In this document: piece by piece, positions 3,130-42,327 of the stretch
Layout: every line of letters begins with the position of its first letter
Position numbering within the stretch: the first letter of the stretch is position 1
NCBI GenBank assembly: GCA_015490465.1
Contig: WFXS01000063.1
Span: 1 to 42,672, forward strand
Direction of reading: 5' to 3'
From: Caldifarciminota bacterium
GTDB lineage: Bacteria; Hydrothermota; Hydrothermia; LBFQ01
Length of the DNA: 42,672 nucleotides
The notes under the pieces: model-generated
What the model saw: only the letters and a program-made list of their open reading frames with translations
Databases searched by the model: none
What the model was told of the DNA's origin: nothing
Made by a program: the position numbers and the translations under genes

Positions 3130-3135
3130 ATTATA
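3130..3135 (-). promoter_or_regulatory. -10 box of rplO-secY-adk (leaderless)
   Basis: TATAAT on the minus strand, eight bases before the rplO ATG, preceded by CCCG. The near-palindrome TATTATA also gives TATTAT on the plus strand (3129-3134), so the same bases may fire in both directions. Confidence 0.8.
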
Positions 3136-3140
3136 CGGGG

Positions 3141-3390
3141 GAAATCCACTATCATTTCGGATGAAAACACAGTTTCCAACAGCTAACCTCAGGGGTCCCC
3201 TGGGGAAGAGAGTCGCTCCGGTGAGGTACTATGCACGCGTGTCCGGAGCCGACGCCGGAATCGGGAAAGAGTAGGGGGGTTTACGTACTGGACTTCGTTG
3301 GAATACGTACCTTCGGGTCGGTATCCGGTGAATAGGACGACGGCAAACGTAGATCAATAAAGTAAACACCCCTTTATGGGTGGATCATAT
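3141..3390 (+). ncRNA. Candidate structured RNA, divergent from rplO (class unknown)
   Basis: No plausible gene lies here, but several helices can be drawn by hand. ATCCAC (3144-3149) pairs with GTGGAT (3380-3385) as a closing stem. CCTCAGGG (3187-3194) pairs with CCCTGGGG (3198-3205) around a GTC loop. GTCGCTCCGG (3212-3221) pairs with CCGGAGCCGAC (3243-3253) with one bulge. GGGGGTTTAC (3275-3284) pairs with GTAAACACCCC (3362-3372) with one bulged A. The second helix contains a U-G pair on the plus strand that would be A-C on the other, favouring the plus strand. A plus-strand TATTAT at 3129-3134 would start RNA near 3141, right at the closing stem. I could not match it to RNase P RNA, tmRNA, SRP RNA, 6S or a riboswitch I know. 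Confidence 0.45.
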
Positions 3391-3465
3391 CGTACTTCTT
3401 TATTTAAGTGCCGCATTCTCTATAAGGAGTGTAATTTTGTAAGCAAGAAAGGTGGGTAAGGTTGT

Positions 3466-3696
3466 AAATGCGGGCTTCGCGCCTCGTGTCAAGAGCGTAG
3501 ATCGGTTTTCTGTTGTTTCCAGTGATCCGCATTTCTGGACGAACATGAGGAGATACGGTCGCAAGGTATGGACGTACCCCACAGATAGGGCAGGAGGAAA
3601 GTATATACTGTACGGAACATAACCTTGAATATTGTGTGTAGTAAACCGATACGGATGGATTCCAATACCCGTAGTTTAACGACGTAGTGTCTACGG
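3466..3696. other. Further inverted repeats in the gene-free stretch before etfB
   Basis: AAATGCGG (3466-3473) is complementary to CCGCATTT (3527-3534), an 8-base perfect stem enclosing 53 bases. CCGTAG (3669-3674) is complementary to CTACGG (3691-3696). There is no coding signal in any frame. These may be a 3' extension of the candidate RNA at 3141 or a second RNA; strand is undetermined. Confidence 0.35.
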
Positions 3697-3746
3697 CAGT
3701 TAATGTAAAGTGCCGAAAAACTCGCCTCTTATGTAAATTTCAACGG

Positions 3747-3752
3747 TAAAAT
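3747..3752 (+). promoter_or_regulatory. -10 box of etfBA (leaderless)
   Basis: TAAAAT preceded by ACGG, nine bases before the etfB ATG; no Shine-Dalgarno between. Confidence 0.75.
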
Positions 3753-3761
3753 CCCCACCCT

Positions 3762-4502
3762 ATGAAGGTACTGGTATTTATAAAGCGTACCCCTGACACC
3801 GCAGCCGTCGTCAAGCCGACACCCGACGGCAAAGACATAGTCAGGGAGGGGTTGGCCTTCATCATAAACCCCTACGACGAATTTGCAGTTCAGGAGGCCG
3901 TTAACATCAAGTCGGCTAAGGGGGGAGAAACCGTGGTTATGACTGTGGGGGACGATGCATCCACCGAGCAGCTCCGCCGCGCCCTGGCCATGGGCATAGA
4001 CAGGGCGATCCTGGTTAAGCACGACAGGTTCTGGGAGCTGAACCCCTCGCAGGTTGGATACGCCATAGCAGAGATAGCGAAGAAGGAGAACCCCGACCTC
4101 ATCATCATGGGTAAGGTCACCATAGACGACTACACCTACGCCCTCGCTCCCTACGTTGCTCAAGCTCTGGGGTACAACCTCGTTACCTACGCCACCAACG
4201 TTGAGTACGGGGATAGCACGATGAAGGTGGAAAGGGAGAGCGACCTCGGTAAGGAGGTGTGGGAGGTACCTTATCCGGCCGTTATAAGCGCCGAGAGGGG
4301 TCTAAACGAACCCAAGATACCGAGCGTAATGGGCGTAATGAAGGCCAAGAAGAAGCCCCTTGACGTCGTGGAGATGGATCTGCCGTCTTACGCGTACGAA
4401 ATCGTCAGGTTCACCCCTCCGCCTCCGCGTAAGGGCGTTAAACTCCTTGAGAGCGTTGACGATCTCATAAGGGTACTCAAAGAGGAGGTGAAGATACTAT
4501 GA
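3762..4502 (+). CDS. etfB: Electron transfer flavoprotein, beta subunit
   Basis: Beta subunit of the heterodimeric ETF that carries electrons between flavin dehydrogenases and quinone or ferredoxin partners in the cytoplasm. The 246 residues start with VLVFIKRTPDTAA, the family's N-terminal strand, followed by INPYDEFAVQEAV and the GETVVMTVGD segment, then the loop AIDRAILVKHD where family members bind AMP or FAD. Length is normal. ATG at 3762 is fixed by the leaderless -10 box. The stop overlaps the etfA start in an ATGA, indicating translational coupling. No FixC/FixX or acyl-CoA dehydrogenase gene is nearby, so the partner is unknown. Confidence 0.93.
   Translation: MKVLVFIKRTPDTAAVVKPTPDGKDIVREGLAFIINPYDEFAVQEAVNIKSAKGGETVVMTVGDDASTEQLRRALAMGIDRAILVKHDRFWELNPSQVGYAIAEIAKKENPDLIIMGKVTIDDYTYALAPYVAQALGYNLVTYATNVEYGDSTMKVERESDLGKEVWEVPYPAVISAERGLNEPKIPSVMGVMKAKKKPLDVVEMDLPSYAYEIVRFTPPPPRKGVKLLESVDDLIRVLKEEVKIL
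4483..4490 (+). promoter_or_regulatory. Shine-Dalgarno of etfA
   Basis: AGGAGGTG, the ideal anti-16S complement, eight bases before the etfA ATG. It contrasts with the leaderless start of etfB in the same transcript. Confidence 0.85.
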
Positions 4503-5446
4503 AGGCTCTCGTCTTCGTTGAGACCGTAAAGGGGAAGGTAAAGGAGGCCTCGCTTGAAGCCATAGGCTTCGCCCACATGGTGTCCGACGAGGTGGTTGCC
4601 GTGGTCGTGGGCAAAGGGGTTGAGAAGAACCTTAAGGGTGTAAAGAGGGCGTACGTTTACGAAGACGACAGGTTGGAGATACCCCTGTCCGCCCCCATAG
4701 CGAAGGTGATTGAGGAGGCTCAGAAGAAGGAGGGAGCCAAATACGTTATACTATCCGCCACGCCCTTCGGTAAAGAGCTCGGCGGAAGGCTCGCCGCCCT
4801 CTTCAACGCTCCCATCCTTGACGACTTCACCGGTTACGAGGACGGCCTATTCGTAAAGGGCTTCTACTCTAACAAGGTCTTCGCCCACATAAAGGTAGAC
4901 GGGGATATGGTGGTTCTCTCTCCCCGTCCCAAGGCCTTTAAGCCCACGGATGACCAGACGGAGCCGGAGTACGTGGACCTCTCCGTGGAGCTTGACGATA
5001 GCCTCTTTGCCGCCCATCCGGTTGAGATAAAGGAGAAGTCCCCCGAGGACATAGACGTCACCGAGGCCGACATCGTCGTCTCCGGGGGCAGGGGTATGGG
5101 AAGCGCCGAGAACTACCAGAAGTGGATCCCCGCCCTCAAGGATGCCCTTGCAAAGGCAACCGGTATGAAGGTGGCCTACGGTGCCTCCCGTGCGGCGGTT
5201 GATGCCGGCTGGGTGGATCACTCCCATCAGGTCGGCCAGACCGGTAAGACGGTATCTCCCCTCGTGTACTTCGCCATAGGTATATCGGGAGCGATACAGC
5301 ATCAGGCCGGTATGCGTACGTCCAAGACCATAATCGCCATAAACAAGGATCCGGAGGCTCCCATATTCGGCCTGGCCGATTACGGCATCGTCGCCAAGTG
5401 GGAGGACGTCCTTCCGGAACTCATAGAGAAGCTGAAGGGCGAATAG
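4499..5446 (+). CDS. etfA: Electron transfer flavoprotein, alpha subunit
   Basis: FAD-binding alpha subunit of ETF. The 315 residues have the N-terminal ETF fold and a well conserved C-terminal FAD domain: VVSGGRGMGSAENY, then SRAAVDAGWVDHSHQVGQTG, then GISGAIQHQAGM, then NKDPEAPIFGLADYGIV. These are hallmark motifs of the domain. Length is typical (about 310-330). It overlaps etfB by four bases and has a perfect Shine-Dalgarno. A strong hairpin terminator follows 18 bases after the stop, so etfBA is a two-gene operon. Confidence 0.96.
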   Translation: MKALVFVETVKGKVKEASLEAIGFAHMVSDEVVAVVVGKGVEKNLKGVKRAYVYEDDRLEIPLSAPIAKVIEEAQKKEGAKYVILSATPFGKELGGRLAALFNAPILDDFTGYEDGLFVKGFYSNKVFAHIKVDGDMVVLSPRPKAFKPTDDQTEPEYVDLSVELDDSLFAAHPVEIKEKSPEDIDVTEADIVVSGGRGMGSAENYQKWIPALKDALAKATGMKVAYGASRAAVDAGWVDHSHQVGQTGKTVSPLVYFAIGISGAIQHQAGMRTSKTIIAINKDPEAPIFGLADYGIVAKWEDVLPELIEKLKGE

Positions 5447-5464
5447 GCCTATCGGTAAAGTAGG

Positions 5465-5492
5465 ACCGGGGGATCGTTTCCCCCGGTTTTTT
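5465..5492 (+). terminator. Intrinsic terminator of etfBA
   Basis: ACCGGGGG (5465-5472) pairs with CCCCCGGT (5480-5487), extended by an A-T pair, and is followed by a T run to 5492. Confidence 0.9.
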
Positions 5493-5734
5493 GAGGTCCC
5501 CTCTGCACAACCCCTTCTTGCCCCCATCAGGGCGGTTAGGATTTCTTTTGTCAATCCCTGTTCTCAGGGTAAAATATCCTTAAGTTGATCCAATTAGTGT
5601 AAACTTTCTCAATTCTAAACCATCAGCATCATACCCGTACCCGTAAAACTTTTGAAAGCGTACGGTGTATCAGAGCGGTAGGATATAGTTCCGGTTGCTA
5701 CGTTCCCCACTTTTGTTAAAAGGACGGCACAAAC
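5493..5734. other. Intergenic stretch between two terminators, no gene seen
   Basis: No open frame of note. An isolated TAAAAT (5570-5575) resembles the local -10 boxes and is followed nine bases later by a TTG (5585), but that frame stops after five codons. A CCGTAC/GTACGG inverted repeat lies around 5640-5680. It could be a short RNA or decayed sequence. Confidence 0.3.
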
Positions 5735-5765
5735 AAAAAGGCGGCAGGTTCAGGCCTGCCGCCTT
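5735..5765 (-). terminator. Intrinsic terminator of the A/V-ATPase B gene
   Basis: An 11-base perfect stem, AAGGCGGCAGG (5738-5748) with CCTGCCGCCTT (5755-5765), followed on the minus strand by TTTTTG. It ends transcription 20 bases after the stop. Confidence 0.9.
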
Positions 5766-5785
5766 ACGCAAACGGTATTCTATAC

Positions 5786-7204
5786 CTACTCCTCTTCCTC
5801 CACCTTCTTCCTCTGAAGACGCTCCTTTATGGGCTTCAGGTACTTCTCTATGTACTCCCTCTTGATACGGGTAAGTTCCGTCTCCGGGAACATCGCGAGG
5901 AGTTTCCAGCCTATCTCAAAGGTCTCCTCTATGCTCCTTGGCCTGTTCCCCTGGTTCAACATCTCCTGCTCAAACCTGTCGGCGAAGCGGAGGTATATCC
6001 TCTCGTTCTCGTCTATGGCGTCCTCACCAACGATGGAGACCAGACGACGCACGTCCTTACCGCGGGCGTAGGCGGCGAAGAGCTGGTCCGCCCAGTTCCT
6101 GTGGAACTCCGCCGTCTTCCCCTTACCTATACCGAGGTTCATCAGACGGCTAAGGGACGGCAGAGGATCAATAGGCGGGAAGACGCCGGCGGCGTGAAGT
6201 TCACGGGAAAGCACGATCTGACCCTCGGTGATGTACCCCGTCAGGTCGGGAATGGGGTGGGTTATGTCGTCGTCGGGCATCGTGAGTATGGGGATCTGCG
6301 TGACGGAACCCTTACGGCCCTTTATACGGCCGGCACGCTCGTAGATGGTGGCGAGGTCGGTGTACATGTACCCCGGATAACCGCGCCTTCCGGGAACCTC
6401 CTCACGGGCGGCGGCTATCTCACGGAGGGCCTCGGCGTAGTTGGTCATGTCCGTCAGGATTACGAGGACCTGATAACCGAGGTCAAAGGCGAAGTACTCT
6501 GCCACAGTGAGGGCAAAGCGCGGAGTGAGTAGCCTCTCAATGGGAGGGTCGTCGGCGAGGTTGATGAAGGCGATCAGACGGCTCGCGGCACCCATCTCCT
6601 CAAACTGCTGCTTGAAGAAAGCGTACTCCCTCTGCGTTATACCCATAGCAGCGAAGACGACGAGGAACTGCTCTCCCTCGCCACGGACGGTGGCGTTCCT
6701 CATTATGAAGGCGGCTATCTCGTTGGCCGGGAGACCGGCGCCGGAGAAGATAGGGAGCTTCTGCCCACGGACGAGGGTGTTGAAGCCGTCTATGGAGGAT
6801 ATACCCGTCTGTATGAAGTCCGACGGCTTGTTCCTCGCTACGGGGTTTATGGCCTCACCGATTATTGGGAGACGCTTTTCGGGGACGATGGGCGGAAGGC
6901 CGTCTATAGGTTCCCCCCTACCGTTGAAGACCCGCCCTATCAGATCTTTAGACACCCCTATCCTTACGACGTTGTCTACCAGCCTTATGCGGATGGAGGA
7001 GGCGTCAAGGCCGAGGGTACCTTCAAGCACCTGTATAACGGCGAGATCTTCGGAAACCTCCAGAACCTGACCGCTTCTACTCGTGCCGTCGGGCAAAATG
7101 ATCTCCACAAGGCTTCCGTAGGGAAGTTCCTTAGCCTTATCAACTATGATAAGGGGACCCGATATGTACTTAGCCCCTACGTACTCTTTCGTTGCAAGCT
7201 CCAT
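5786..7204 (-). CDS. atpB: A/V-type ATP synthase subunit B
   Basis: Non-catalytic regulatory subunit of the A1/V1 head of an archaeal/vacuolar-type rotary ATPase. The 472 residues show the family's N-terminal barrel, [14 protein letters not shown], the degenerate P-loop [13 protein letters not shown] (no Walker lysine, as expected for B), [15 protein letters not shown], and the [25 protein letters not shown] block, with a charged C-terminal tail. Length is normal. ATG at 7204 sits eight bases after a TATAAT box, and a terminator lies directly downstream, so the gene appears monocistronic. Subunit A (catalytic), D and the rest of the ATPase, which normally flank B, are absent from the window. 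Also called ntpB. Confidence 0.95.
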
Positions 7205-7212
7205 AAGCGGCT

Positions 7213-7218
7213 ATTATA
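7213..7218 (-). promoter_or_regulatory. -10 box of the A/V-ATPase B gene (leaderless)
   Basis: TATAAT on the minus strand, eight bases before the ATG at 7204. Confidence 0.8.
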
Positions 7219-7260
7219 CTGGGGAAAGGGTGGATAATATACCTTAATCCCTTTCCGCTT

Positions 7261-7266
7261 TAGACT
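7261..7266 (+). promoter_or_regulatory. -10 box of ankyrin gene (leaderless)
   Basis: TAGACT, seven bases before the TTG at 7274; a weaker match than its neighbours. Confidence 0.55.
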
Positions 7267-7273
7267 TTGAACT

Positions 7274-8200
7274 TTGAAAGGGAACCGTGAGATCTTTGAG
7301 GCTATTGAGAGAGAAGACGTGGAACGTCTGAGGGAACTCGTTGAAAAGGGCATAGACGTGGACCTGCCGGACGAGGAGGGATACACTCCCCTCTTCAGGG
7401 CGGCCTTTAATGGAAATCCCGGGGCTGTGAAGGTACTCATAGATGCCGGGGCAGAAGTACATACGGTCTCCCCTGTCGGGGATACGCCTCTGGAGGCGAT
7501 AATACCCCTGCTCTATTTCCCGGATTATCCGAAAGTGTTGAGGCTCCTGGTGGATGAGTACATCCGAAGGGACATGTTAGACGTTACGTTTAACGAGGGG
7601 AAGACTCTCCTTTACTTTGCCATAGTCGGAGGTTCCCTGAGACAGGTCAAACGGCTCATAGAGAACGGGATTACGAGGGTCTATGTAAACGCCCCTCCCG
7701 ATCTGGCGTTGCACGTCGCGATTGAGTTTGAACATCTAAACGTAGCGAAGTACCTGATCCGTAAGGTTGGGCTTGATCCGAACGTTAAGGACCCGGAATT
7801 CGGTGATACCCTCCTCCACCGCGCTGCCGACACGGGGAATCTGAGGATCGTTAAGTTCGTTTTGGAGGAGCTTGGCGCAAGTCTGAACGTAAGGAACAAC
7901 GAAGGTTTTACTCCACTACATACGGCGGCCTTCGCCGGCCATTTGAACGTGGTGAAGTACCTCATAGCCGCGGGAGCCAACGTAAACGCGAGAGATAAGA
8001 ACGGAAATACTCCCCTCCATCTCGCCGCCATGTGGGGGAACGGGCGTGTAGTAAGTTATCTCGTACGCAACGGCGCAAACGTAACTCTGAGAAACAGAGA
8101 GGGCAAAACGCCCTGCGATATGGCTCTGAGTCTGGACGTACAGGTTCTGATGGGCATGTGTAATACGTTCACGGTAGACGTATACTATCTGGAATCGTAG
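7274..8200 (+). CDS. Ankyrin-repeat protein
   Basis: A 308-residue protein made almost entirely of ankyrin repeats, helix-turn-helix modules that bind protein partners. About eight repeats can be read; the clearest are EGFTPLHTAAFAGHLNVVKY and NGNTPLHLAAMWGNGRVVSY, each followed by an L..xGANV turn. Weaker repeats lie at the N-terminus (EGYTPLFRAAFNGNPGAVKV) and the last is truncated (EGKTPCDMAL). I see no signal peptide or enzymatic domain, so it is probably cytoplasmic with an unknown partner. The TTG start is chosen from the TAGACT box seven bases upstream. It is divergent from the ATPase B gene across 69 bases. Confidence 0.85.
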   Translation: MKGNREIFEAIEREDVERLRELVEKGIDVDLPDEEGYTPLFRAAFNGNPGAVKVLIDAGAEVHTVSPVGDTPLEAIIPLLYFPDYPKVLRLLVDEYIRRDMLDVTFNEGKTLLYFAIVGGSLRQVKRLIENGITRVYVNAPPDLALHVAIEFEHLNVAKYLIRKVGLDPNVKDPEFGDTLLHRAADTGNLRIVKFVLEELGASLNVRNNEGFTPLHTAAFAGHLNVVKYLIAAGANVNARDKNGNTPLHLAAMWGNGRVVSYLVRNGANVTLRNREGKTPCDMALSLDVQVLMGMCNTFTVDVYYLES

Positions 8201-8229
8201 ATTACCCGACACATGGGCGACGACTTCCT

Positions 8230-8241
8230 TTCACCGGTGAA
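8230..8241. promoter_or_regulatory. Palindrome upstream of winged-helix gene (possible operator)
   Basis: A perfect 12-base palindrome, TTCACCGGTGAA, centred about 20 bases upstream of the -10 box at 8253. The position suits repressor or activator binding, possibly by the winged-helix product itself. Confidence 0.35.
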
Positions 8242-8252
8242 GGGGTCACCCG

Positions 8253-8258
8253 TATACT
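8253..8258 (+). promoter_or_regulatory. -10 box of winged-helix gene (leaderless)
   Basis: TATACT preceded by CCG, nine bases before the ATG at 8268. Confidence 0.65.
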
Positions 8259-8267
8259 GCCCATATC

Positions 8268-8852
8268 ATGAGGTGGGAACGTGCTCTGAACATCCTTCCT
8301 GATGTAGGGAATAGCCGCGCTAAATGGTTGATATACGAGATTCTGGATTCTTATCCCAACATCAATCTCAAGGATCTGTCCAAACATTTGTTCGTACCCC
8401 TCAAGGAATTGAGGGATACGGCCCGGCTCATGGAGAGCTGGGGATGGTTGAAAGATTACGGGAAGGACAAATACTACGTTACGTTAAATTACGATGCGGT
8501 TGAGGAGATCAAGTCCCGGCTGCGCCCTCAGATCATGCGCCCGTGGACGAGGGAGGACTACGAGGACTTCTACCACGACCTGACCCGCGAGGAGAGGAGA
8601 TTGCTGAACCGCATAGTGTTCTCCTCCGGTAAGGTGAGCGTCCGTACCCTTATGGGCATGATGAAGGGCGAGGGCTTCTTTAAGGTGGCCTCTCTGGAGA
8701 GGAAACTCCGGAACTTCTGTTACGACAGGGGTCTCGCCCTTCCCCTTACCAGAAGCAAGAAGTTCATCAACTTCGGAGGAGGGAGGACGCAGGCCGAGTA
8801 CGTGGTGGACCGCGGCTTCCAGAGCCATATGAGGCAGATAGTGGGGAGGTAA
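8268..8852 (+). CDS. Winged-helix-like hypothetical protein
   Basis: A 194-residue basic protein I cannot assign to a named family. Residues about 15-70 (RAKWLIYEILDSYPNINLKD, then LSKHLFVPLKELRDTARLME and WGWLKDYGKDKYYVTLN) have the helix-helix-helix-wing pattern of a winged-helix DNA-binding domain. A second half from about 95 (TREERRLLNRIVFSSGKVSV, then RTLMGMM) looks like another, possibly degenerate, helix-turn-helix. There is no signal peptide. It is likely a DNA- or RNA-binding regulator, but that is inference. The gene lies 16 bases ahead of the CCA-adding enzyme gene, which has its own promoter. A perfect palindrome lies in its own promoter region. Confidence 0.6.
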   Translation: MRWERALNILPDVGNSRAKWLIYEILDSYPNINLKDLSKHLFVPLKELRDTARLMESWGWLKDYGKDKYYVTLNYDAVEEIKSRLRPQIMRPWTREDYEDFYHDLTREERRLLNRIVFSSGKVSVRTLMGMMKGEGFFKVASLERKLRNFCYDRGLALPLTRSKKFINFGGGRTQAEYVVDRGFQSHMRQIVGR

Positions 8853-8856
8853 GCCG

Positions 8857-8862
8857 TAGAAT
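8857..8862 (+). promoter_or_regulatory. -10 box of CCA-adding enzyme gene (leaderless)
   Basis: TAGAAT preceded by GCCG, only six bases before the TTG at 8869, the shortest spacing seen. Confidence 0.75.
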
Positions 8863-8868
8863 CACCCC

Positions 8869-10020
8869 TTGAGGATAGGGGAGGTTCTGGAAAGGTTCCA
8901 CGAATGGCGGGGGAAGTTTGACGTTTATCTCGTTGGTGGTGTGGTGAGGGATCTCCTCCTCCACGGTGAGGGTTACAGGGTAAAGGACTGCGACGTCGTC
9001 CTCATAGGGGGCAGGGGAATCCTGAGGAAGTTCGTGGATCTCCTGATGGAAGAGGGGGGACACCTGAACCGTTTCAGCCGTTTCGGTACGGCCGAACTTA
9101 CCTATAGGGGGATGAACCTTGACGTGACCCTGGCCCGCAGGGAGAGGTACGCCTACCCCGGCGCCCTGCCCGACGTGGAGTTCACCGACGACCTCTACGA
9201 GGACTCTCTGAGGAGGGACTTCACCGTAAACGCCCTGTACCACGACGGGAAGGACATCTTAGACTTTCACGGCGGTGTTGAGGACCTGAAAAACGGGCTT
9301 TTAAGACCCCTCGCCTCTTTTGAGGACGATCCCACCCGCGGCCTCCGTGGGGTAAGGTACAGGCACAAGCTGGGCTTTTCATACCACGAGACCTTTTATA
9401 ACGCCGTTAAAGATGCGGCCAGATATATTTCCAACGTCTCCCACCAGAGGATACTGAACGAGCTGAGACTCACGGCCGAACTTCCCCGTAGGGTTCTTAT
9501 GGGTGCCGTAAAGGACGCCGTGAGGTTCAACCTTCTACGCACGATCCTCAAAGTTAAACCCCGATTTCCTGAAAAGATATACCTCGGAAGACCGAACGGC
9601 GCCCGATGGATAGTGCTGCTCGCTCCCTTCCTGAGGAAGGACCTTCCACTGACGAAAGAGGAAAGGCGTGTACTCCGAATAAGGGGACCGTTGAACCTTA
9701 AAACGATCTCCGATGTACATCTCAGGATGAACAGGTGGAGCGATCTGGAGATACTCGCTTACATGACGTGGTACGCTACCGACAAGGAGAGGGAAATCCT
9801 GAAGGTTTACACGAGGATACGGGACAGGGTACGGATAAGGATGTACCCGAAGCGGGAGAGGATAAAGAGCGCCATCGCCTCCATGCACGCCCTCGGAATA
9901 TCGGGGAACGTCCCCATGGAGTGTACTGAGGAACCTCCGACCCCTAAGGATAGGCAGACCTACAAACTCCGGTGCGAGGGGAGGATCATGGAGATGTACC
10001 TGAATGAACTTCGCCGGTAG
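8869..10020 (+). CDS. cca: CCA-adding enzyme / poly(A) polymerase family nucleotidyltransferase
   Basis: Class II nucleotidyltransferase that adds or repairs the 3' CCA of tRNA. The head domain shows GGVVRD (23-28), the metal-binding DxD as DCD (40-42), RRDFTVNAL (115-123) and DPTRGLRGVRYRHKLGF (154-170), which correspond to conserved motifs A to D of the family. The 383-residue length is normal. The C-terminal part is basic and poorly conserved. The TTG start is set by the TAGAAT box six bases upstream. Both tRNA genes in this window lack an encoded CCA, so the organism needs this activity. A poly(A) polymerase of the same fold cannot be excluded from sequence alone. The TAG stop is also the start of the recG -10 box. 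Confidence 0.88.
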   Translation: MRIGEVLERFHEWRGKFDVYLVGGVVRDLLLHGEGYRVKDCDVVLIGGRGILRKFVDLLMEEGGHLNRFSRFGTAELTYRGMNLDVTLARRERYAYPGALPDVEFTDDLYEDSLRRDFTVNALYHDGKDILDFHGGVEDLKNGLLRPLASFEDDPTRGLRGVRYRHKLGFSYHETFYNAVKDAARYISNVSHQRILNELRLTAELPRRVLMGAVKDAVRFNLLRTILKVKPRFPEKIYLGRPNGARWIVLLAPFLRKDLPLTKEERRVLRIRGPLNLKTISDVHLRMNRWSDLEILAYMTWYATDKEREILKVYTRIRDRVRIRMYPKRERIKSAIASMHALGISGNVPMECTEEPPTPKDRQTYKLRCEGRIMEMYLNELRR

Positions 10021-10023
10021 AAT
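10018..10023 (+). promoter_or_regulatory. -10 box of recG, overlapping the upstream stop codon
   Basis: TAGAAT whose TAG is the stop codon of the preceding gene. It lies nine bases before the recG GTG start. Confidence 0.7.
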
Positions 10024-10032
10024 AGGGCGAAG

Positions 10033-12111: not shown

Positions 12112-12203
12112 TAAAAACACCGTGTTACATCCCGGAATGATGGGCGCATCACAGGACAGCAGGGAACAGGAAGAGTACACTATCGGGGAATTCGCAGGAG
12201 TAG

Positions 12204-12570
12204 TTGACGAACGCGGAAGTCCCCGTCTCCATGAGCGCAGGGGTGGCTGAAGGTTATCCTGCCGGATTGGTACTGCGATTACCCCCAATTGAAAGGGAAC
12301 CGTGCGGTGAAGTACTGACACGAGGACTGAAGGAGGATCGTTATGGCCTACCTCAGGAGGATAGTGGAGGCCGGATTTTCAGGGGTGTGCGTGGATAAGG
12401 TGGACGCGTACGAGTACCGGCCCGATTCCCTCGGCACCGTTGAGGCTGCCCGAAGGATGTCCTTTCTCTCTTAAGGAGGTGGCCGACTCCTGCAGGGCGT
12501 GGGCAGGTGGTACGTGCATAGAGGTTACTCAGAAGGAAGACGAAGGAACCGGGCCTTATACCCTACGCGG
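12204..12570 (+). pseudogene. Decayed GH114 / TM1410-like glycosidase remnant
   Basis: Between recG and the next gene is a broken reading frame. From 12244 it reads WLKVILPDWYCDYPQLKGNR, then AVKY-stop-HED-stop-RRIVM, then AYLRRIVEAGFSGVCVDKVD and AYEYR. The last block is the 'yldrl...GFDGVYLD.vDAYEY' signature of endo-alpha-1,4-polygalactosaminidase-like (TM1410/GH114) proteins. Both in-frame TGA codons (12316, 12328) fall where the family has tryptophan (KYW...W), as expected from TGG to TGA changes. A TAA follows at 12472, and similarity continues in another frame (KEVADSCRAWAGGTCIEVTQ, then KEDEGTG). Upstream similarity around 12204-12243 is also in a different frame. Ends are approximate. 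Several frames plus three stops indicate a dead gene rather than a sequencing slip. Confidence 0.65.
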
Positions 12571-12646
12571 CCGACACGTCCCGGAGGCTGGACAGCCCCG
12601 TAGTAATTCCCGGTATTCAACTCGCCATTGAACCGCATACCGACCG

Positions 12647-12652
12647 TAAAAT
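12647..12652 (+). promoter_or_regulatory. -10 box of beta-barrel gene and lptD (leaderless)
   Basis: TAAAAT preceded by ACCG, seven bases before the ATG at 12660. Confidence 0.75.
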
Positions 12653-17127: not shown

Positions 17128-17133
17128 ATTCTA
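17128..17133 (-). promoter_or_regulatory. -10 box of lipoprotein pair (leaderless)
   Basis: TAGAAT on the minus strand preceded by ACCG, nine bases before the TTG at 17118. Confidence 0.75.
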
Positions 17134-17164
17134 CGGTCGCACTACGGGTAGACGCCTGCACCCT

Positions 17165-17176: not shown

Positions 17177-18403
17177 ATCTATTACCCCGTAGTCGTATCG
17201 CTCGCCTTTCTTGCGGGTATCTTCTCCTTCTTCCAGCCTCTTCTGTGGGTCGTCCTTATTCCGGTAGCGGTACCGTTTCTCCGCAAACCCCTCTACGCTC
17301 TTCCCCCTCTACTCTTCTTTCTCCTTGGATTTCTGCGCGCGTACTCCGTCCTCGGCACGGGTGAGGAGGTCAGGGATGGGGAGGGATGGTACATCGTCAG
17401 CGTATACGATTGGGGAAAGGGACGGATCGTTTACAGGATAACGGACGGGAATCTTGTGAAGGCCCGGAGTGGAGATATAACCGTCCTCGCCGGAGATAGG
17501 CCGGCGTTTCCGAGGGACGAGGTCGTGGTCAGGGGCGCTTTAAGGAACGACACCCTCCGGGTCTACGAGGCCTATGTGAAGAAGGGGGTAAAGTGGTTCT
17601 ACGAGGCCGTCAGTAAGTTGTTGCTCAAACGTACCCTCTCCGAAGAGCAGTACGCCTTCGCCCTCTCCGTCGTAACCGGTGTCAGGGAACTTAAGTGGGA
17701 GGTGAAGGAGGCCTTTTACCGTACGGGGATGGGGCATATCCTCGCCATATCCGGCCTCCACGTGGGGATAATCTTTCTGGCCCTCGTCGTGATCCTGAGG
17801 TTCGTTATTCCCGGAGTTTACGTTCCGGTGGTAGCCTCAGCCGTCGTGTGGATTTACGCCTATCTGGTGGGTTTTCTTCCCTCGGTCGTGAGGGCTGCCA
17901 CCCTCTTAACCGCGTTCTCGGTGGCCTCGCTCCTCTCAAAGCCGGTTAAACCTCTCAACGTCCTCGCCCTCTCCCTCCTGCTTTCCCTCATGGTAAAGCC
18001 TCTGTGGGCGTTTTCCCCCTCCCTGTGGCTCTCGTATTCGGCGGTGGCCGGTCTCTTCGTTCTACGGGGAAAGGTGGGGGCATTATTCGGGGCCTCCCTC
18101 TTCTCCATCCCCTTCGCCCTGAAGTACTTCGGCAGGTTCGCCGTACTGTACGTTCCACTTAACCTGATAGTTATCCCGCTTATGACGGCCTTCATGTACT
18201 CCCAGATCCTCGCCCTCCTCCTTCCTTACCCCTTTACCTATTCGGCGGCCTTCTTCTACAACCTCCTTGAGTGGATAGTCCTCAAAGCGTACTCTCTGAA
18301 CCTTCCTGCCCTCCATCTCACCCCCGGCTGGCTGTCCGTCGTCATTTACGTCGTCCTGCTCTCCCTCCTCCTGATGTGGCTGAGGTGTCGTACTACCTCC
18401 TGA
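17177..18403 (+). CDS. comEC: ComEC/Rec2-family DNA uptake channel (probable AUC start)
   Basis: Inner-membrane channel protein for uptake of single-stranded DNA in transformation. The competence core is clear: FYRTGMGHILAISGLHVGII, then several transmembrane helices with LPSVVRAATLL. The C-terminal metallo-beta-lactamase domain of long ComEC is absent, so this is the short form, about 408 residues. The first conventional start (GTG at 17456) would remove the N-terminal membrane helices and the OB-like part. The same frame is open back to a TAG at 17165 and encodes a good N-terminus (PVVVSLAFLAGIFSFFQPLL). No ATG, GTG or TTG exists in that part. ATC at 17177 is the only near-cognate codon at leaderless distance from the TAGAAT box. 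An ATG at 17169 is out of frame and would need a frameshift. Confidence 0.8.
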   Translation: MYYPVVVSLAFLAGIFSFFQPLLWVVLIPVAVPFLRKPLYALPPLLFFLLGFLRAYSVLGTGEEVRDGEGWYIVSVYDWGKGRIVYRITDGNLVKARSGDITVLAGDRPAFPRDEVVVRGALRNDTLRVYEAYVKKGVKWFYEAVSKLLLKRTLSEEQYAFALSVVTGVRELKWEVKEAFYRTGMGHILAISGLHVGIIFLALVVILRFVIPGVYVPVVASAVVWIYAYLVGFLPSVVRAATLLTAFSVASLLSKPVKPLNVLALSLLLSLMVKPLWAFSPSLWLSYSAVAGLFVLRGKVGALFGASLFSIPFALKYFGRFAVLYVPLNLIVIPLMTAFMYSQILALLLPYPFTYSAAFFYNLLEWIVLKAYSLNLPALHLTPGWLSVVIYVVLLSLLLMWLRCRTTS

Positions 18404-19858: not shown

Positions 19859-19864
19859 ATTTTA
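19859..19864 (-). promoter_or_regulatory. -10 box of T9SS-type propeller gene
   Basis: TAAAAT on the minus strand, 11 bases before the ATG at 19847. Confidence 0.6.
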
Positions 19865-19897
19865 AAGCATGAGACCCCCCGGGTGCAAGCGGATTGG

Positions 19898-20911: not shown

Positions 20912-20973
20912 CAGTAGAATACGTCCCAAATACCTTCCTGTTGCAAGATCCGGTAAAACACCTTTTACGGGGG

Positions 20974-20979
20974 TAGAAT
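20974..20979 (+). promoter_or_regulatory. -10 box of bamA (leaderless)
   Basis: TAGAAT, eight bases before the bamA ATG at 20988. Confidence 0.75.
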
Positions 20980-23770: not shown

Positions 23771-23776
23771 ATTCTA
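23771..23776 (-). promoter_or_regulatory. -10 box of mscL (leaderless)
   Basis: TAGAAT on the minus strand, eight bases before the ATG at 23762. Confidence 0.75.
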
Positions 23777-23885
23777 TACCTGAAATGCGCTTATGCATAT
23801 ACATTTGTATTTTCGCACCGCGTTTGGCAGGGGAACGTATTTCCGGTTGGGTTCTGACGGGATGTTTTCGTCTCCTGCTCTCCCG

Positions 23886-23891
23886 TATAAT
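23886..23891 (+). promoter_or_regulatory. -10 box of small hypothetical gene (leaderless)
   Basis: TATAAT preceded by CCCG, ten bases before the ATG at 23902. It decides the start in favour of 23902 over an upstream in-frame ATG at 23764. Confidence 0.75.
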
Positions 23892-25345: not shown

Positions 25346-25351
25346 GGGGTA

Positions 25352-25357
25352 ATTCTA
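25352..25357 (-). promoter_or_regulatory. -10 box of GT4 gene (leaderless)
   Basis: TAGAAT on the minus strand, six bases before the TTG at 25345. Only nine bases separate it from the opposing -10 box at 25367. Confidence 0.75.
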
Positions 25358-25366
25358 ACACGGCCG

Positions 25367-25372
25367 TAGAAT
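25367..25372 (+). promoter_or_regulatory. -10 box of ABC ATPase gene (leaderless)
   Basis: TAGAAT preceded by GCCG, seven bases before the GTG at 25380. Confidence 0.75.
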
Positions 25373-25379
25373 CTTTCAC

Positions 25380-26048: not shown

Positions 26049-26068
26049 ACTCCATCGGATTTCTACCG

Positions 26069-26074
26069 TAAAAT
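26069..26074 (+). promoter_or_regulatory. -10 box of C25 peptidase gene (leaderless)
   Basis: TAAAAT preceded by ACCG, nine bases before the ATG at 26084. Confidence 0.75.
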
Positions 26075-33730: not shown

Positions 33731-33769
33731 AATTGGGGAAGTCTCTTTCAACCCCCCACGGTCGGTGGT

Positions 33770-34274: not shown

Positions 34275-34283
34275 CTGGTTGAT

Positions 34284-34289
34284 ATTCTA
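34284..34289 (-). promoter_or_regulatory. -10 box of NuoE-like gene (leaderless)
   Basis: TAGAAT on the minus strand, nine bases before the ATG at 34274. Confidence 0.75.
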
Positions 34290-34314
34290 AGGACTGACAG
34301 AACAAAAATGTTAT

Positions 34315-35391
34315 CTACACCCTCCACCAGTTCAGCAGGCTCCTTACGATCTCGTCCCTCAGGGTGGGAACTTTACTGGCGTTCAGGAGTACCCATAGGG
34401 TGAACAGCACGGCGGAAGGCAGGAATGCCCACCTTGTTAGGGGAGTCAGGAGGAAGGTCAGGTACGCCCAGTGATAGAGCCAGTCCATTTCGGAGTTCCC
34501 CCGGCCGAAGTTGAGCATGTACCACTTCCTTCCCATTCCCATGGCGAAGCTGCCCATGCCGAGGAGCATGAAGGGGACGTGGTGGTTTCGGTCGTAGGAG
34601 AAGGCGTAAACGAGGGCGATAACGAAGAAGAGTACACCGAGGGCTATGGGGTAGTTGAACACGAACTCCCTGACCTGGTAGAGAAACAGGATAAGGGCTA
34701 CACCGAGAAATATCGCCGCCAGCTTAAGGTAAAAGTAGTCGTAACTGAAGCCCACGAAGTTCAACAACATGGCGCTCTGGGTGAGGATCAGGACCGTTAT
34801 CGCGATCCACGGGGATACGTCCCGTTTGACCTTTCTGGAGAACCGTGGGAGCATGAAGTACATGCAGCCGAGGAAGGTATGCAACTGGAACCCCAGAAAC
34901 ACGAGGTGAAGGAAGGCCTTTCCTCCGGTTAACAGGGAGGCGAAACCCCAGATCGCCCCGGACAACATAAAGGATGCGGCGGCCACGTCGTAAATCCTCT
35001 TTACGCTCCTGAAACGGTAAACTATGAGGGGGATGAACTGGAAGATCAGGAACAGGACAAAGCCCACCTTGTAGAAGGGCAGGATGGTTCCGAGGTCGTG
35101 GAAAAAGGCGTAGTGAAGGATGGAACCGGTTATGAGGAGCCAGGAGAGGTCGGCCGCTATCTTAAATATCCCCCCTCTGTTTCTGGGGAAGGTTATGCTT
35201 CCGTGCTGGACGGACAGGATATAGGTCTGGACGAAACCCATAAGGAAGAGGACGTACCTACCCTCTAAGGTTTCCTGAAAGGGAGTGAGGATGAGAAAGA
35301 GTAGGGAAGAGAGGGCGAAGAGGCGGGCCCACCACATGGTCATGAAGTAGGGGAACCTCGGGTGCATCGTCGGATTGTACGGTTGTGCCAC
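34315..35391 (-). CDS. Polytopic membrane protein, unknown function
   Basis: A 358-residue protein with about 12 hydrophobic segments and little else. Several conserved-looking histidines lie in or next to helices (QHGSITFPRN, LHYAFFHDLG, HLVFLGFQLHTFLG, DRNHHVPFML). Such intramembrane histidines are seen in heme-copper oxidase-like and NnrS-like proteins, so a heme or metal role is possible but unproven. GTG at 35391 is chosen; the TATACT box ends 12 bases upstream. The promoter overlaps that of the divergent tRNA genes. Confidence 0.65.
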   Translation of the reverse strand: MAQPYNPTMHPRFPYFMTMWWARLFALSSLLFLILTPFQETLEGRYVLFLMGFVQTYILSVQHGSITFPRNRGGIFKIAADLSWLLITGSILHYAFFHDLGTILPFYKVGFVLFLIFQFIPLIVYRFRSVKRIYDVAAASFMLSGAIWGFASLLTGGKAFLHLVFLGFQLHTFLGCMYFMLPRFSRKVKRDVSPWIAITVLILTQSAMLLNFVGFSYDYFYLKLAAIFLGVALILFLYQVREFVFNYPIALGVLFFVIALVYAFSYDRNHHVPFMLLGMGSFAMGMGRKWYMLNFGRGNSEMDWLYHWAYLTFLLTPLTRWAFLPSAVLFTLWVLLNASKVPTLRDEIVRSLLNWWRV

Positions 35392-35403
35392 ATATCGTTC
35401 GGC

Positions 35404-35409
35404 AGTATA
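35404..35409 (-). promoter_or_regulatory. -10 box of membrane-protein gene, overlapping tRNA promoter
   Basis: TATACT on the minus strand, 12 bases before the GTG at 35391. It shares four bases with the opposing TATAAT. Confidence 0.55.
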
Positions 35410-35411
35410 AT
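35406..35411 (+). promoter_or_regulatory. -10 box of tRNA-Ala/tRNA-Val
   Basis: TATAAT, 13 bases before the first tRNA base; predicts a 5' leader of about seven bases removed by RNase P. Confidence 0.75.
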
Positions 35412-35424: not shown

Positions 35425-35497
35425 GGGGCGGTAGCTCAGGTGGGAGAGCGCCGGAATCGCACTCCGGAGGTCGGGGGTTCGAGTCCCCTCCGCTCCA
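35425..35497 (+). tRNA. tRNA-Ala (CGC)
   Basis: A full cloverleaf can be drawn: acceptor GGGGCGG with CCGCTCC, D stem GCTC/GAGC, anticodon stem CCGGA/TCCGG with loop ATCGCAC (anticodon CGC, reading GCG), T arm GGGGG-TTCGAGT-CCCCT, discriminator A. The acceptor has the G3-U70 wobble that is the alanine identity signal. CCA is not encoded. Three bases separate it from the next tRNA. Confidence 0.96.
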
Positions 35498-35500
35498 TAC

Positions 35501-35573: not shown

Positions 35574-35590
35574 TTTTTTTGTTTCAACGT

Positions 35591-35596
35591 TATAAT
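35591..35596 (+). promoter_or_regulatory. -10 box of FIST-DUF4388 pair (leaderless)
   Basis: TATAAT, nine bases before the ATG at 35606. Confidence 0.75.
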
Positions 35597-35605
35597 AGGT
35601 AGTCT

Positions 35606-39377: not shown

Positions 39378-39751
39378 TTATAGTCCCGTCCGAGTATCAC
39401 GTAAACGGAGGCTATGTTGTCCGTGTCCGGCAGGTAGACGAGTTTGCCCTTTACGTACCGGGCTACCCTTTTAGCGTTGGAGAGGTTCACGCTATCCTTC
39501 CGGTCAATTATGAGGGTCTGGGCGTACATGGTGTCCGCATTACCGTAGTAGAGGACGTCTATCCCCTTCTTCCGGAGGTACCAGCTCACGCTGTAAGCCA
39601 GCCTGTTCCTCCGGGTTCCGTTGAGGACGATCACGTCCAGCCTCTCGTCCGTTACGCTCTTTTTCTCCTTTTTGCTAAAATCAACTACGTACGGTAAAAC
39701 GGTGACAGCAGAGAACAGCAGAATCAGACCGATCCATAAGGCACGAAGCAC
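39374..39751 (-). CDS. LytR C-terminal-like (LytR_C) membrane-anchored protein
   Basis: A 125-residue protein with one N-terminal membrane anchor (LWIGLILLFSAVTVLPYVV) and a LytR_C-like domain: DVIVLNGTRRNRLAYSVSWY, then KKGIDVLYYGNAD and a final VYVILGRDYK strand. This domain is often in cell-wall or envelope proteins with no known enzymatic role. GTG at 39751 is seven bases after a TACAAT box. Its stop overlaps the downstream Omp85 gene, which implies a role in envelope biogenesis. Confidence 0.7.
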   Translation of the reverse strand: MLRALWIGLILLFSAVTVLPYVVDFSKKEKKSVTDERLDVIVLNGTRRNRLAYSVSWYLRKKGIDVLYYGNADTMYAQTLIIDRKDSVNLSNAKRVARYVKGKLVYLPDTDNIASVYVILGRDYK

Positions 39752-39758
39752 GGAGTAG

Positions 39759-39764
39759 ATTGTA
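39759..39764 (-). promoter_or_regulatory. -10 box of LytR_C-Omp85 operon (leaderless)
   Basis: TACAAT on the minus strand, seven bases before the GTG at 39751. Confidence 0.65.
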
Positions 39765-39802
39765 CGGTGGTACGGTTGATATTTTTAAACAACACGCCAC
39801 TT

Positions 39803-39808
39803 TAGAAT
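39803..39808 (+). promoter_or_regulatory. -10 box of GT2 gene (leaderless)
   Basis: TAGAAT, eight bases before the TTG at 39817. Confidence 0.75.
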
Positions 39809-39816
39809 AAACTCCC

Positions 39817-40755
39817 TTGAAGGTTTCCGTTATTGTTCCCGCCTACAACGAACGCGATAACGTTCTGCCCCTCTTTGAGGAGTTTGACAGTTTCTTCAAG
39901 AAATACGGGATAAAGGACTGGGAGATAGTGTACGTGGACGACGGCTCAACCGATGGCACCTACGAGGAAGCCGTAAAGCACGCGAAGAGGTTCCCTTTTG
40001 TCAGGGTCCTGAAGCACGCCCGCAACCTCGGAAAGACGGCCGCGATAATAACCGGTTTTGAAAACTCCGAAGGGCGGTACGTAGCCATATACGATGCCGA
40101 CCTCCAGTTCGTTCCGGAGGACATCCTCCGCATGGTGAACCTTATGGAGGAAAAGGGGTACGATCTCGTGACGGGCAGGAAGGTTGGTAAGTACGAAAAG
40201 GCCTTCGTTTCTCGCGTGTACAACACCCTCAACAGGTGGCTGTTCGGGGTTCCCGTATCCGACATGAACTCCATGAAGGTTATGAGGAGGGAGGTTCTGG
40301 AGGATATACCGCTGCGCAAGGAGTGGCACAGGTACATGGTGGCTCTGGCCTGGGTGTACGGCTATTCCGTGGGGGAGATAGATATAACCCTGAGGCCCCG
40401 CAGGGCGGGGGAATCCAAGTACAGGGGGATAGGGAGGGTGTTCGTGGGTGTGGCCGATCTGATAGCCGTATGGCTTTATACCACCTTCACCCGGAAACCG
40501 CTCCTGATATTCGGTAGTATAGGTACGTTCTTCCTCACCCTTGGCTTGCTGATCGGTGGGGTAGGGGTGGCCCTCAGGATGGCCGGCCACGGGTACAGGC
40601 CCCTTCTGTTTCTCGTCGTCCTCCTCCTGATCGTAGGCACGATGTTCTGGATCCTGGCCCTCCTCGGTGAGGTGGTGGCGTCGGTGTACGACGAGGTGCG
40701 GAAACTACGGCACATGCTGAAGAGGACTTCTCAGAGGGGACGTTTTCAACCTTAG
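39817..40755 (+). CDS. Family 2 glycosyltransferase (DPM1/undecaprenyl-phosphate type)
   Basis: A 312-residue GT-A enzyme with two C-terminal membrane helices (PLLIFGSIGTFFLTLGLLIG and LFLVVLLLIVGTMFWILALL). Conserved points: VIVPAYNERDNV, VDDGSTDGT, YDADLQF (the DxD-type metal site), and AGESKYRGIGR, typical of polyprenyl-phosphate mannosyl or glucosyl transferases. It probably loads a sugar on a lipid carrier at the inner face of the membrane for glycan or LPS synthesis. The TTG start is eight bases after a TAGAAT box. The TAG stop starts the recN -10 box. Confidence 0.88.
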   Translation: MKVSVIVPAYNERDNVLPLFEEFDSFFKKYGIKDWEIVYVDDGSTDGTYEEAVKHAKRFPFVRVLKHARNLGKTAAIITGFENSEGRYVAIYDADLQFVPEDILRMVNLMEEKGYDLVTGRKVGKYEKAFVSRVYNTLNRWLFGVPVSDMNSMKVMRREVLEDIPLRKEWHRYMVALAWVYGYSVGEIDITLRPRRAGESKYRGIGRVFVGVADLIAVWLYTTFTRKPLLIFGSIGTFFLTLGLLIGGVGVALRMAGHGYRPLLFLVVLLLIVGTMFWILALLGEVVASVYDEVRKLRHMLKRTSQRGRFQP

Positions 40756-40758
40756 AAT
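40753..40758 (+). promoter_or_regulatory. -10 box of recN, overlapping the upstream stop codon
   Basis: TAGAAT whose TAG is the GT2 stop codon; nine bases before the recN TTG at 40768. Same design as the cca-recG junction. Confidence 0.7.
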
Positions 40759-40767
40759 TGAACCGTC

Positions 40768-42327
40768 TTGATAAAGAGGCTCACCGTAAAGGATTACCTG
40801 ATCTTTGAGGCTGCGAGCGTGGAGTTTGATGGAGGTTTTAACGTCCTCTCCGGCGAGACGGGGGCAGGTAAATCCCTTCTGATAGACGCCATATCTCTCC
40901 TTTCGGGAGGGAGGGTAGATTGGGACTCCGTACCCCGCAGGGCCTACCTTGAGATGGTGATGGAGGGTGACGAGACCCTCGCCCGGGCGCTGTCCGACCT
41001 CGGTATCCCCTACGATGGGGAAGTTGTCGTCAGGCGTACCCTGAACCCCGAAACCCGGAGGTCCCGCATCCTCCTTAACGACATGCACGTATCCGCGGGG
41101 GTCGTGCGGAGGCTCCTTCAGGGGAGGATATTCGTGGGATCGCAGTTCGCCCATACGGGGGTAGACGACCCCCACTTTCAGACGGAGGTTCTGGACAGGT
41201 TCGCCGGCGTAGATTACGGGGAGTATCCAATACTTTACGCCGAATACCGTGCGAAGATAAACCGCCTCAGGAAGCTTGAAAGCCGTCTCTCGGAGTTGAA
41301 GGAGAGGGAAGACTACCTGCGTTTTCAACTGGACGGTCTCAAAAAGCTGAACCTGCACGAAGGGGAGGAGGAGGAACTCCTGAAACGCAGGGAGGAACTG
41401 GAGGAGATAATAAAGGCTCAGGAGTGGAGCCTCCGCTTTCGGGAGGTGTACCCATCCTTGAGGGAGAGTATAACGTCCCTCCTCAGAGATGCCCCGGAGA
41501 GGTTCAGGGGTGACCTTGAGAACGTCCTGAACGTCCTGACCGATATGGCCATGGAGGTTCCGGACGAGGGAGAAGAGGACCTTCAGGAGGAGTTTGACCG
41601 GATAAACGCCCGTCTCTACGAGATAGGGAGACTCAAGAGCCGATTTCGTACTGACTTTGAAGGTCTATTGCGCCTTATGAATACGCTTGAGGCGGAACTC
41701 CGCTCTATAAGGGAACTGGAAGACGAGGTTGTGAGGTTAAGACACGAACTAAATGGTCTCATAACGAAGCTTGAGAAGGCTGCATCCCGCATAAGCGATC
41801 AGAGGAGTAAGTACCTGAAGGAGTTTGTCGGGTACGTTGAAGACAACCTGAGGGCCCTCGGTTTTGAGTACGTAAAGGTTGAGGTCCGTATGGAGGAAAC
41901 CGATTTCCACCCTTCGGGCAGGGATGTGGTTGTTCTTCTCGTGTCCACGGTGCCGGACGTACCTCCCCATCCGGTTTCTGGCCTTTCGGGAGGGGAACTG
42001 TCCCGTACAGCCCTCGTCCTCTTTTCAACCGGGGCGTCCCGTTTCCGCACCCTCATACTGGACGAGATAGATATGGGTGTGAGTCCGTCCGTTGCCGACA
42101 GAATAGGTCGTCTCCTTAAGGATCTCTCCGGTCAGGTTCAGGTAATAGCCATTACGCACCAGGCCTTCACGGCCATGCACGCCGATAAGCACCTTGTCGT
42201 TGAGAGGTTGTCCCCATCTGAGGCTGTCGTAAGGGAGGTTACGGGTGAAGACAGATGGAGAGAGCTGGCCCGGATGATGGGTGTAAAGGATCCAGATATG
42301 GCGAGGATAACACTGGGAGGGGAATAA
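40768..42327 (+). CDS. recN: DNA repair protein RecN
   Basis: SMC-like ATPase that helps double-strand break repair. The 519 residues show Walker A GETGAGKS (29-36), a central coiled coil (about 165-370; KRREELEEIIKAQEW, then LRSIRELEDEVVRLRHELNG), the ABC signature GLSGGELSRTALVL and Walker B TLILDEIDMGVS. It is slightly shorter than E. coli RecN (553). The TTG start is set by the TAGAAT box nine bases upstream. No terminator is obvious after the stop. Confidence 0.96.
   Translation: MIKRLTVKDYLIFEAASVEFDGGFNVLSGETGAGKSLLIDAISLLSGGRVDWDSVPRRAYLEMVMEGDETLARALSDLGIPYDGEVVVRRTLNPETRRSRILLNDMHVSAGVVRRLLQGRIFVGSQFAHTGVDDPHFQTEVLDRFAGVDYGEYPILYAEYRAKINRLRKLESRLSELKEREDYLRFQLDGLKKLNLHEGEEEELLKRREELEEIIKAQEWSLRFREVYPSLRESITSLLRDAPERFRGDLENVLNVLTDMAMEVPDEGEEDLQEEFDRINARLYEIGRLKSRFRTDFEGLLRLMNTLEAELRSIRELEDEVVRLRHELNGLITKLEKAASRISDQRSKYLKEFVGYVEDNLRALGFEYVKVEVRMEETDFHPSGRDVVVLLVSTVPDVPPHPVSGLSGGELSRTALVLFSTGASRFRTLILDEIDMGVSPSVADRIGRLLKDLSGQVQVIAITHQAFTAMHADKHLVVERLSPSEAVVREVTGEDRWRELARMMGVKDPDMARITLGGE

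Follow-up and report, generated by a model that had tools for sequence, protein, structure and literature searches.

The closest described systems are the leaderless genes of Deinococcus-Thermus and of mycobacteria. In the former, a TANNNT box about 6–7 nucleotides (nt) before the open reading frame (ORF) is the -10 element, a -35 element is not needed in Deinococcus, and other genes use a Shine-Dalgarno (SD) sequence (PMC12340547; PMC3160421). According to a 2025 study, this phylum is the most prominent in leaderless use, with ~30% of ORFs, and the text of the study gives the box only as TANNNT, most often TACACT (PMC12340547). The 46.1% of Deinococcus radiodurans, obtained by another method, is the bacterial maximum according to Zheng et al. 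(PMC3160421), and ~60% is cited for D. deserti in a review (PMC9031893). In Mycobacterium tuberculosis and M. smegmatis, the -10 element is likewise TANNNT, RNA starts at the start codon, and SD-led and leaderless genes are used side by side (PMC3898074, PMC4633059), the leaderless share being ~20–25% of genes (PMC9031893). A similar organization is found in the DNA described here, an entire contig of 42,672 nt (C63; “the window”) from the 2.05-Mb genome, in 126 contigs, of a Caldifarciminota bacterium, in which most genes that lead a transcript carry a TANAAT box just upstream of the start codon. Very probably, this box is the downstream end of a -35-independent promoter, TTTCnnCC[G/T]TAnAAT, from which RNA would start 6–9 nt further on, leaving the lead genes mostly leaderless.

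Gene starts were picked by longest ORF or by coding score, and the motif was never used in the choice. In the window, TANA(A/C)T lies 11–17 nt before a usable start in 20 of 23 lead genes by our own gene calls. A first-pass annotation of the window had claimed 23 of 24 first-in-transcript genes; this share is slightly high, while its total of 23 sites agrees with ours and the seven hexamer/start pairs that it quoted are exact in coordinates and strand. The lead genes without the box are those at 17456, ~20671 and ~33730, the last of which has a TAGAAT 22 nt before a TTG at 33751; the box is also found at three genes (8869, 10033, and 40768) that begin 12–16 nt behind a same-strand neighbor. 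Counts over 1.06 Mb of this genome (967 genes), taken as pieces no longer than 20 kb, show the sharp peak upstream of starts that the annotation had anticipated: the first base of the hexamer falls at -15 to -12 in 114 of 222 divergent genes, and most other positions hold 0–3. Chance is excluded as the source of the box, because, of 215 divergent lead genes, 155 have TANAAT at -17 to -11, whereas 200 shuffles give 2.1 on average and never more than 9, and shifted positions give 4–8 matches. The share of divergent genes with the box rises to 86% once the hexamer is slightly relaxed and every start within the first 60 codons is admitted. Genes that follow a same-strand neighbor by less than 20 nt show the peak far more weakly and have a GGAG-type SD at -12 to -10. 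Furthermore, a de novo expectation-maximization search recovers the TANAAT motif unprompted. The box before lead genes is confirmed. Over all ORFs, strict TANAAT stands at -17 to -11 in 371 of 953 (39%), or ~45% with a looser score when classes are summed. This makes the leaderless share high but not unprecedented, with the reservation that methods differ between studies.

On sequence grounds, the hexamer is taken to be a promoter element because the same motif precedes tRNA and rRNA units. TANAAT is found no more than 45 nt upstream in 15 of 17 tRNA transcription units (0.02 per unit expected by chance), with the hexamer ending 9–24 nt before the mature tRNA and with the upstream C described below in all 15, and a strong copy of the motif lies upstream of the 16S gene of the rRNA operon (L034:15174). 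An SD of at least 5 nt is present in only 1% of 299 genes with a promoter 11–17 nt before the start, versus 48% of 27 genes with a promoter 25–45 nt upstream and 40% of 304 internal genes that lack one. The anti-SD tail of the 16S rRNA is intact (GGAACACCTCCTTT) and a six-domain S1-type protein is encoded; therefore, the SD and leaderless modes appear to coexist. The “near-exclusive” leaderless use of the first-pass annotation thus holds for most lead genes, but not for internal genes, which use SD, nor for the minority of lead genes whose promoter lies 25–45 nt upstream and which also have an SD. No cis-regulatory Rfam family, such as a riboswitch leader, reaches its gathering threshold in 274 kb, which is too little to prove absence. 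As a separate observation, L093:18189 and L034:17268 carry the same promoter and downstream sequence (TTTCCCCCGTAGAATGCGCGCATG...) on two contigs, one of the copies lying just after the 16S gene; the identical stretch is duplicated or wrongly split sequence.

Where RNA starts can be judged from the bases between the hexamer and the start codon. This distance is mostly 6–9 nt, with a spread of 5–11 nt. A pyrimidine precedes the start codon in 309 of 384 leaderless-type genes (80%) versus 155 of 348 internal genes (45%; p = 4e-24), the discriminator is depleted in A, and, counting from 5 nt past the hexamer, the start codon supplies the first A in 219 of 293 ATG genes. The median spacing is 8 for ATG and 7 for GTG/TTG (p = 3e-8). 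The pyrimidine at -1 and this shift in spacing fit the choice of start site by RNA polymerase (RNAP), with +1 at the first base of the start codon. The earlier proposal that RNA begins at the initiation codon is still the best reading, given a promoter element at 6–9 nt, the exclusion of SD, the -1 pyrimidine and the spacing shift, and we infer from these patterns that leaderless transcription is highly probable for most first-in-transcript genes. TTG is the start of 36 of the 384 leaderless-type genes (~9%), usually with pyrimidines only before it and with the shortest spacing; those in the window are at 7274, 8869, 17118, 25345, 39817, and 40768, and an orthologue with 69% identity (L011) retains one such start. 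Leaderless starts of mycobacteria are AUG or GUG, and TTG here would mean either U-initiated RNA or a leader of 1–3 nt.

Two other readings of the same spacing have to be weighed. The box and its upstream C might be a translation-initiation signal in the mRNA, that is, a non-SD ribosome-binding motif and no promoter, as the constant distance to the start codon and the mutual exclusion of SD and box would allow. However, the identical motif upstream of tRNA and rRNA units strongly disfavors it; the motif is also mostly limited to transcript-first genes, occurs 18–45 nt upstream of genes that then bear an SD, and fits the -10 box of sigma-70, all of which make this reading very improbable. Alternatively, the promoters may be as described while RNA starts slightly earlier, leaving a leader of 1–5 nt in many genes. 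The 5–11 nt spread of spacing, the U with which TTG genes would otherwise begin, and the 25% of ATG genes that have another A between hexamer +5 nt and the start codon all suit such a leader, but the pyrimidine excess at -1, the scarcity of A in the discriminator and the shorter spacing of G- and T-starts fit a start at the codon, and short leaders of this kind are unlikely to be the rule. In practice, genes with a 1–5 nt leader would count as leaderless, because an SD cannot fit.

The hexamer, numbered here -12 to -7, is only a part of the conserved sequence. The “CCG or G” noticed before the box in the first-pass annotation is real but incomplete, being the downstream part of TTTCnnCC[G/T]TAnAAT, a larger motif that was missed. 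Six bases above the hexamer (~-18), C is found in 342 of 371 promoters (92%) versus 26% of 368 TANAAT sequences in coding regions; C stands at hexamer -3 (~-15) in 68% and G or T at hexamer -1 in 85%, and T is favored at hexamer -8. C-18 is kept in 22 of 23 orthologue pairs from three relatives, where the flanking spacer bases agree about as often as expected by chance. The remark that no -35 box is obvious holds for the consensus, in that no position between -45 and -10 exceeds 0.09 bit, although ~4% of sites have a TTGA at the right distance. Judged against known promoter classes, the sites have neither the TTGACA-like -35 at 16–18 base pairs (bp) of canonical sigma-70 promoters nor, apart from 4 of 314, the TG at -15/-14 of extended -10 promoters, and they do have a sequence preference at -17/-18, as described for the Z-element, in the C-18 of 342 of 371. 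A trade-off between -35 and C-18 within promoters was considered and rejected (TTGA in 1 of 29 without the C vs. 11 of 342 with it; p = 1). Furthermore, the hexamers of divergent leaderless pairs are at most 42 bp apart in 28 of 58 and at most 30 bp in 15 of 58, with a minimum of 6 bp; the 28 pairs have no room for two separate -35/-10 promoters. For example, the 34-bp intergenic space at 25346–25379 of the window holds both promoters, with hexamers at 25352–25357 and 25367–25372, 9 bp apart. The predicted promoter sites of the window are as follows.

3130–3144, minus strand: promoter TTTCCCCCG-TATAAT, 8 nt before ATG 3121 of an L15-like gene, followed by SecY/Adk-like genes (score 18.5)
3738–3752, plus strand: promoter TTTCAACGG-TAAAAT, 9 nt before ATG 3762 of an ETF gene
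7213–7227, minus strand: promoter TTTCCCCAG-TATAAT, 8 nt before ATG 7204 of a V/A-type ATP synthase subunit gene
7252–7266, plus strand: promoter TTTCCGCTT-TAGACT, 7 nt before TTG 7274 of an ankyrin-repeat gene
8244–8258, plus strand: weak match TATACT, 9 nt before ATG 8268 (score 7.8)
8848–8862, plus strand: promoter TAGAAT without C at -18, 6 nt before TTG 8869 of a polyA polymerase-head protein gene
10009–10023, plus strand: promoter CTTCGCCGG-TAGAAT, before GTG 10033 of RecG, overlapping the end of the upstream gene
12638–12652, plus strand: promoter TAAAAT, 7 nt before ATG 12660
17128–17142, minus strand: promoter TAGAAT, 9 nt before TTG 17118
19859–19873, minus strand: TAAAAT, 11 nt before ATG 19847, with C at -19, not -18
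20965–20979, plus strand: promoter TTACGGGGG-TAGAAT, 8 nt before ATG 20988 of BamA/Omp85
23771–23785, minus strand: promoter TTTCAGGTA-TAGAAT, 8 nt before ATG 23762
23877–23891, plus strand: promoter TATAAT, 10 nt before ATG 23902
25352–25366, minus strand: promoter TAGAAT, 6 nt before TTG 25345 of a glycosyltransferase gene
25358–25372, plus strand: promoter TAGAAT, 7 nt before GTG 25380 of an ABC transporter ATPase gene, divergent from the 25345 gene
26060–26074, plus strand: promoter TTTCTACCG-TAAAAT, 9 nt before ATG 26084 of a peptidase C25 gene
32893–32907, minus strand: promoter TAGAAT, 7 nt before ATG 32885 of an M16 peptidase gene
34284–34298, minus strand: TAGAAT without C at -18, 9 nt before ATG 34274
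35374–35388, minus strand: promoter TACAAT, 6 nt before ATG 35367
35397–35411, plus strand: tRNA promoter GTTCGGCAG-TATAAT, 13 nt before the mature 5′ end of tRNA-Ala at 35425, with tRNA-Val next
35582–35596, plus strand: promoter TTTCAACGT-TATAAT, 9 nt before ATG 35606 of a FIST protein gene
39759–39773, minus strand: promoter TACAAT, 7 nt before GTG 39751
39794–39808, plus strand: promoter TAGAAT, 8 nt before TTG 39817 of a glycosyltransferase 2 gene
40744–40758, plus strand: promoter TTTCAACCT-TAGAAT, 9 nt before TTG 40768 of a RecN/SMC-like gene

The phylogenetic distribution of the motif, like its sequence and position, was computed directly, by whole-genome counts over 41 genomes, which fall into cleanly separated groups; the order treated here comprises families f1 and f2, f1 having eight genomes. 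Among TANAAT…ATG sites in excess of expectation, the share with C-18 is 0.83–1.12 in all eight f1 genomes and no more than 0.35 elsewhere, and TTGA at -35 spacing makes up 2–7% of the excess in the order versus 9–45% in 28 other class members (6% in a single genome outside the class). Sampled f2 promoters have C-15 in 80–90% and neither -35 nor C-18 (small samples, n = 15 and 21). G022 and G012, from other families of the same class (loci L148–L152 and L123–L127), also carry TANAAT 6–10 nt before the start codon but differ in that TTGA lies at a spacing of 17–18 bp and both C-18 and C-15 are missing; at the -35 position of sampled G022 promoters, T is found in 100%, T in 91% and A in 91% (a small sample, n = 11). 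These leaderless-type starts with an ordinary -35 suggest that leaderless use is older than the loss of -35 in the order.

As to what reads the motif, RpoD retains its -10 recognition residues, and a second candidate is the β′ subunit, in which 13 extra, basic residues precede the zipper strand directly in comparison with the Thermus and E. coli proteins.

L188:2518–2556, minus strand: insertion at residues 26–38 of β′ (RpoC), EAERKGRERGEYG

Most PDB matches to this β′ begin only at residue 35–37. For relatives, only the extent of alignment served to follow the insertion: a 51-residue β′ segment aligns over its full length in each of the 11 f1 and f2 genomes in which it was detected, and in nine class members outside the order it aligns only from residue 19–20 of the segment on, with the insertion in none of the nine. 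Loss of -35, C-15 and the insertion thus appear to coincide at the level of the order, with C-18 as an addition of f1. In the open complex of Thermus, β′ Y34/R35 and sigma H278/R274 contact the phosphates at -17/-16 (PMC4593229), and a “Z-element” at -17/-18 has been described (PMC5101437). A primary sigma-70-type RNAP, with RpoD as its probable factor, would then recognize the compact TTTCnnCC[G/T]TAnAAT without a -35, the β′ zipper and sigma region 3.0 perhaps reading the C at ~-15 and ~-18 in place of the -35 contact. RNA would begin 6–9 nt past the hexamer, and for most first-in-transcript genes +1 would be the first base of the start codon, giving leaderless mRNA to be translated without SD pairing; an ordinary SD would serve operon-internal genes and those few lead genes whose promoter lies further upstream. 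That the zipper reads the upstream element is a tentative proposal, somewhat short of an even chance, to which the co-occurrence with the adjacent insertion points. A fuller scenario, in which the whole order dropped its default -35, rebuilt the housekeeping promoter on the bases immediately above the -10 box and gained the β′ insertion, and one family then added a near-invariant C-18 read specifically by core RNAP, is conceivable but rather doubtful.

Several observations sit uneasily with this picture. RpoD keeps the -35 residues R584, E585, R588 and Q589 (E. coli numbering), so that -35 reading is not obviously lost from the protein, and the extended -10 residues H455, E458 and R451 (E. coli numbering) are retained as well. 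The insertion is order-wide and C-18 is confined to one family; hence, the insertion alone cannot explain C-18. In addition, 14–28% of divergent lead genes, depending on how the start is chosen, have no nearby hexamer, and the ~9% of TTG starts would need U as the first base if truly leaderless. One way out is that C-18 and C-15 are read not by core RNAP and primary sigma but by a separate lineage-specific DNA- or RNAP-binding factor, CarD-, RbpA- or sigma-appendage-like; CarD and RbpA stabilize mycobacterial promoters. Such a factor would suit the single-family distribution of C-18, which that of the insertion does not match, and the unchanged sigma region 3.0: no family-specific RpoD change in regions 2.4–3.0 stood out among relatives, a comparison that left out five loci, including those of the f2 genomes G008 and G010. 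The fixed distance to the -10 box in ~92% of promoters, tRNA units included, suits the core machinery instead, and a search aimed at stand-alone CarD, with other factors not searched for, gave PF02559 matches only in Mfd- and RecG-sized ORFs; on balance, we regard a separate factor as somewhat unlikely. An alternative sigma in place of RpoD, which would account for the unusual element, is improbable: two further sigma-70-family genes are present (a 283-aa sigma in L097 and an extracytoplasmic function sigma in L096), but tRNA, rRNA and housekeeping genes are all driven by this promoter, as are most transcription units, a task for a primary sigma, and TANAAT is a group-1 -10 box.

The genes of the window are ordinary housekeeping and envelope genes, such as those for ETF, a V/A-type ATP synthase subunit, RecG, LptD, and BamA. 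RecG has relatives at 97, 85, and 76% identity in metagenome-assembled genomes labeled “candidate division WOR-3”, which is the phylum Caldifarciminota in the current NCBI filing, and further ones at 82 and 73% labeled “Thermotogota”, probably wrongly; comparable TAGAAT sites lie upstream of RecG in related loci. Two gene-free stretches, 3136–3737 (~600 bp) and 12112–12637 (~530 bp), have no Rfam match in a genome that is elsewhere tightly spaced. The gene at the contig edge (1–690) is AT-rich and differs from its surroundings, possibly as a recent acquisition. Outside the window, L050:7873–7902 matches the CRISPR repeat RF01315.

Among the open-access papers searched, no description was found of a -35-less promoter with a near-invariant C six bases above the -10 box, nor any paper on leaderless genes or promoters in WOR-3/Caldifarciminota. 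If the fuller scenario holds, with C-18 read by the zipper, this would be, to our knowledge, the first case of a primary promoter class whose defining feature is a base-specific contact by the zipper (Z-element), side by side with dominant use of leaderless mRNA. The class offers a natural experiment, with families that have -35, a sister family with C-15 only, and a family with C-15 and C-18, together with the β′ insertion; whether, and how, the sequence at -17/-18 is read by RNAP is thereby directly testable. The occurrence of leaderless genes at a Deinococcus-like level in a diderm lineage that is uncultured and unrelated is relevant to whether leaderless use is ancient or convergent. For annotation, gene finders that rely on SD would place starts wrongly in these genomes, and start sites can be marked by the 15-bp motif.

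Leaderless bacterial genes are already known, while the promoter architecture looks to be a new variant. Unlike in Deinococcus-Thermus, which is another phylum, TANAAT here follows C-18 and a CC[G/T] at -15 to -13, and unlike in mycobacteria, no stand-alone CarD is seen, as judged by PF02559 matches only. The known extended -10 element is T-15 G-14, whereas C-18, C-15, C/T-14 and G/T-13 are found here and TG is practically absent. Finally, the zipper is described in Thermus as touching mainly the backbone (PMC5101437, PMC4593229), whereas here one base is conserved in 92% of promoters.

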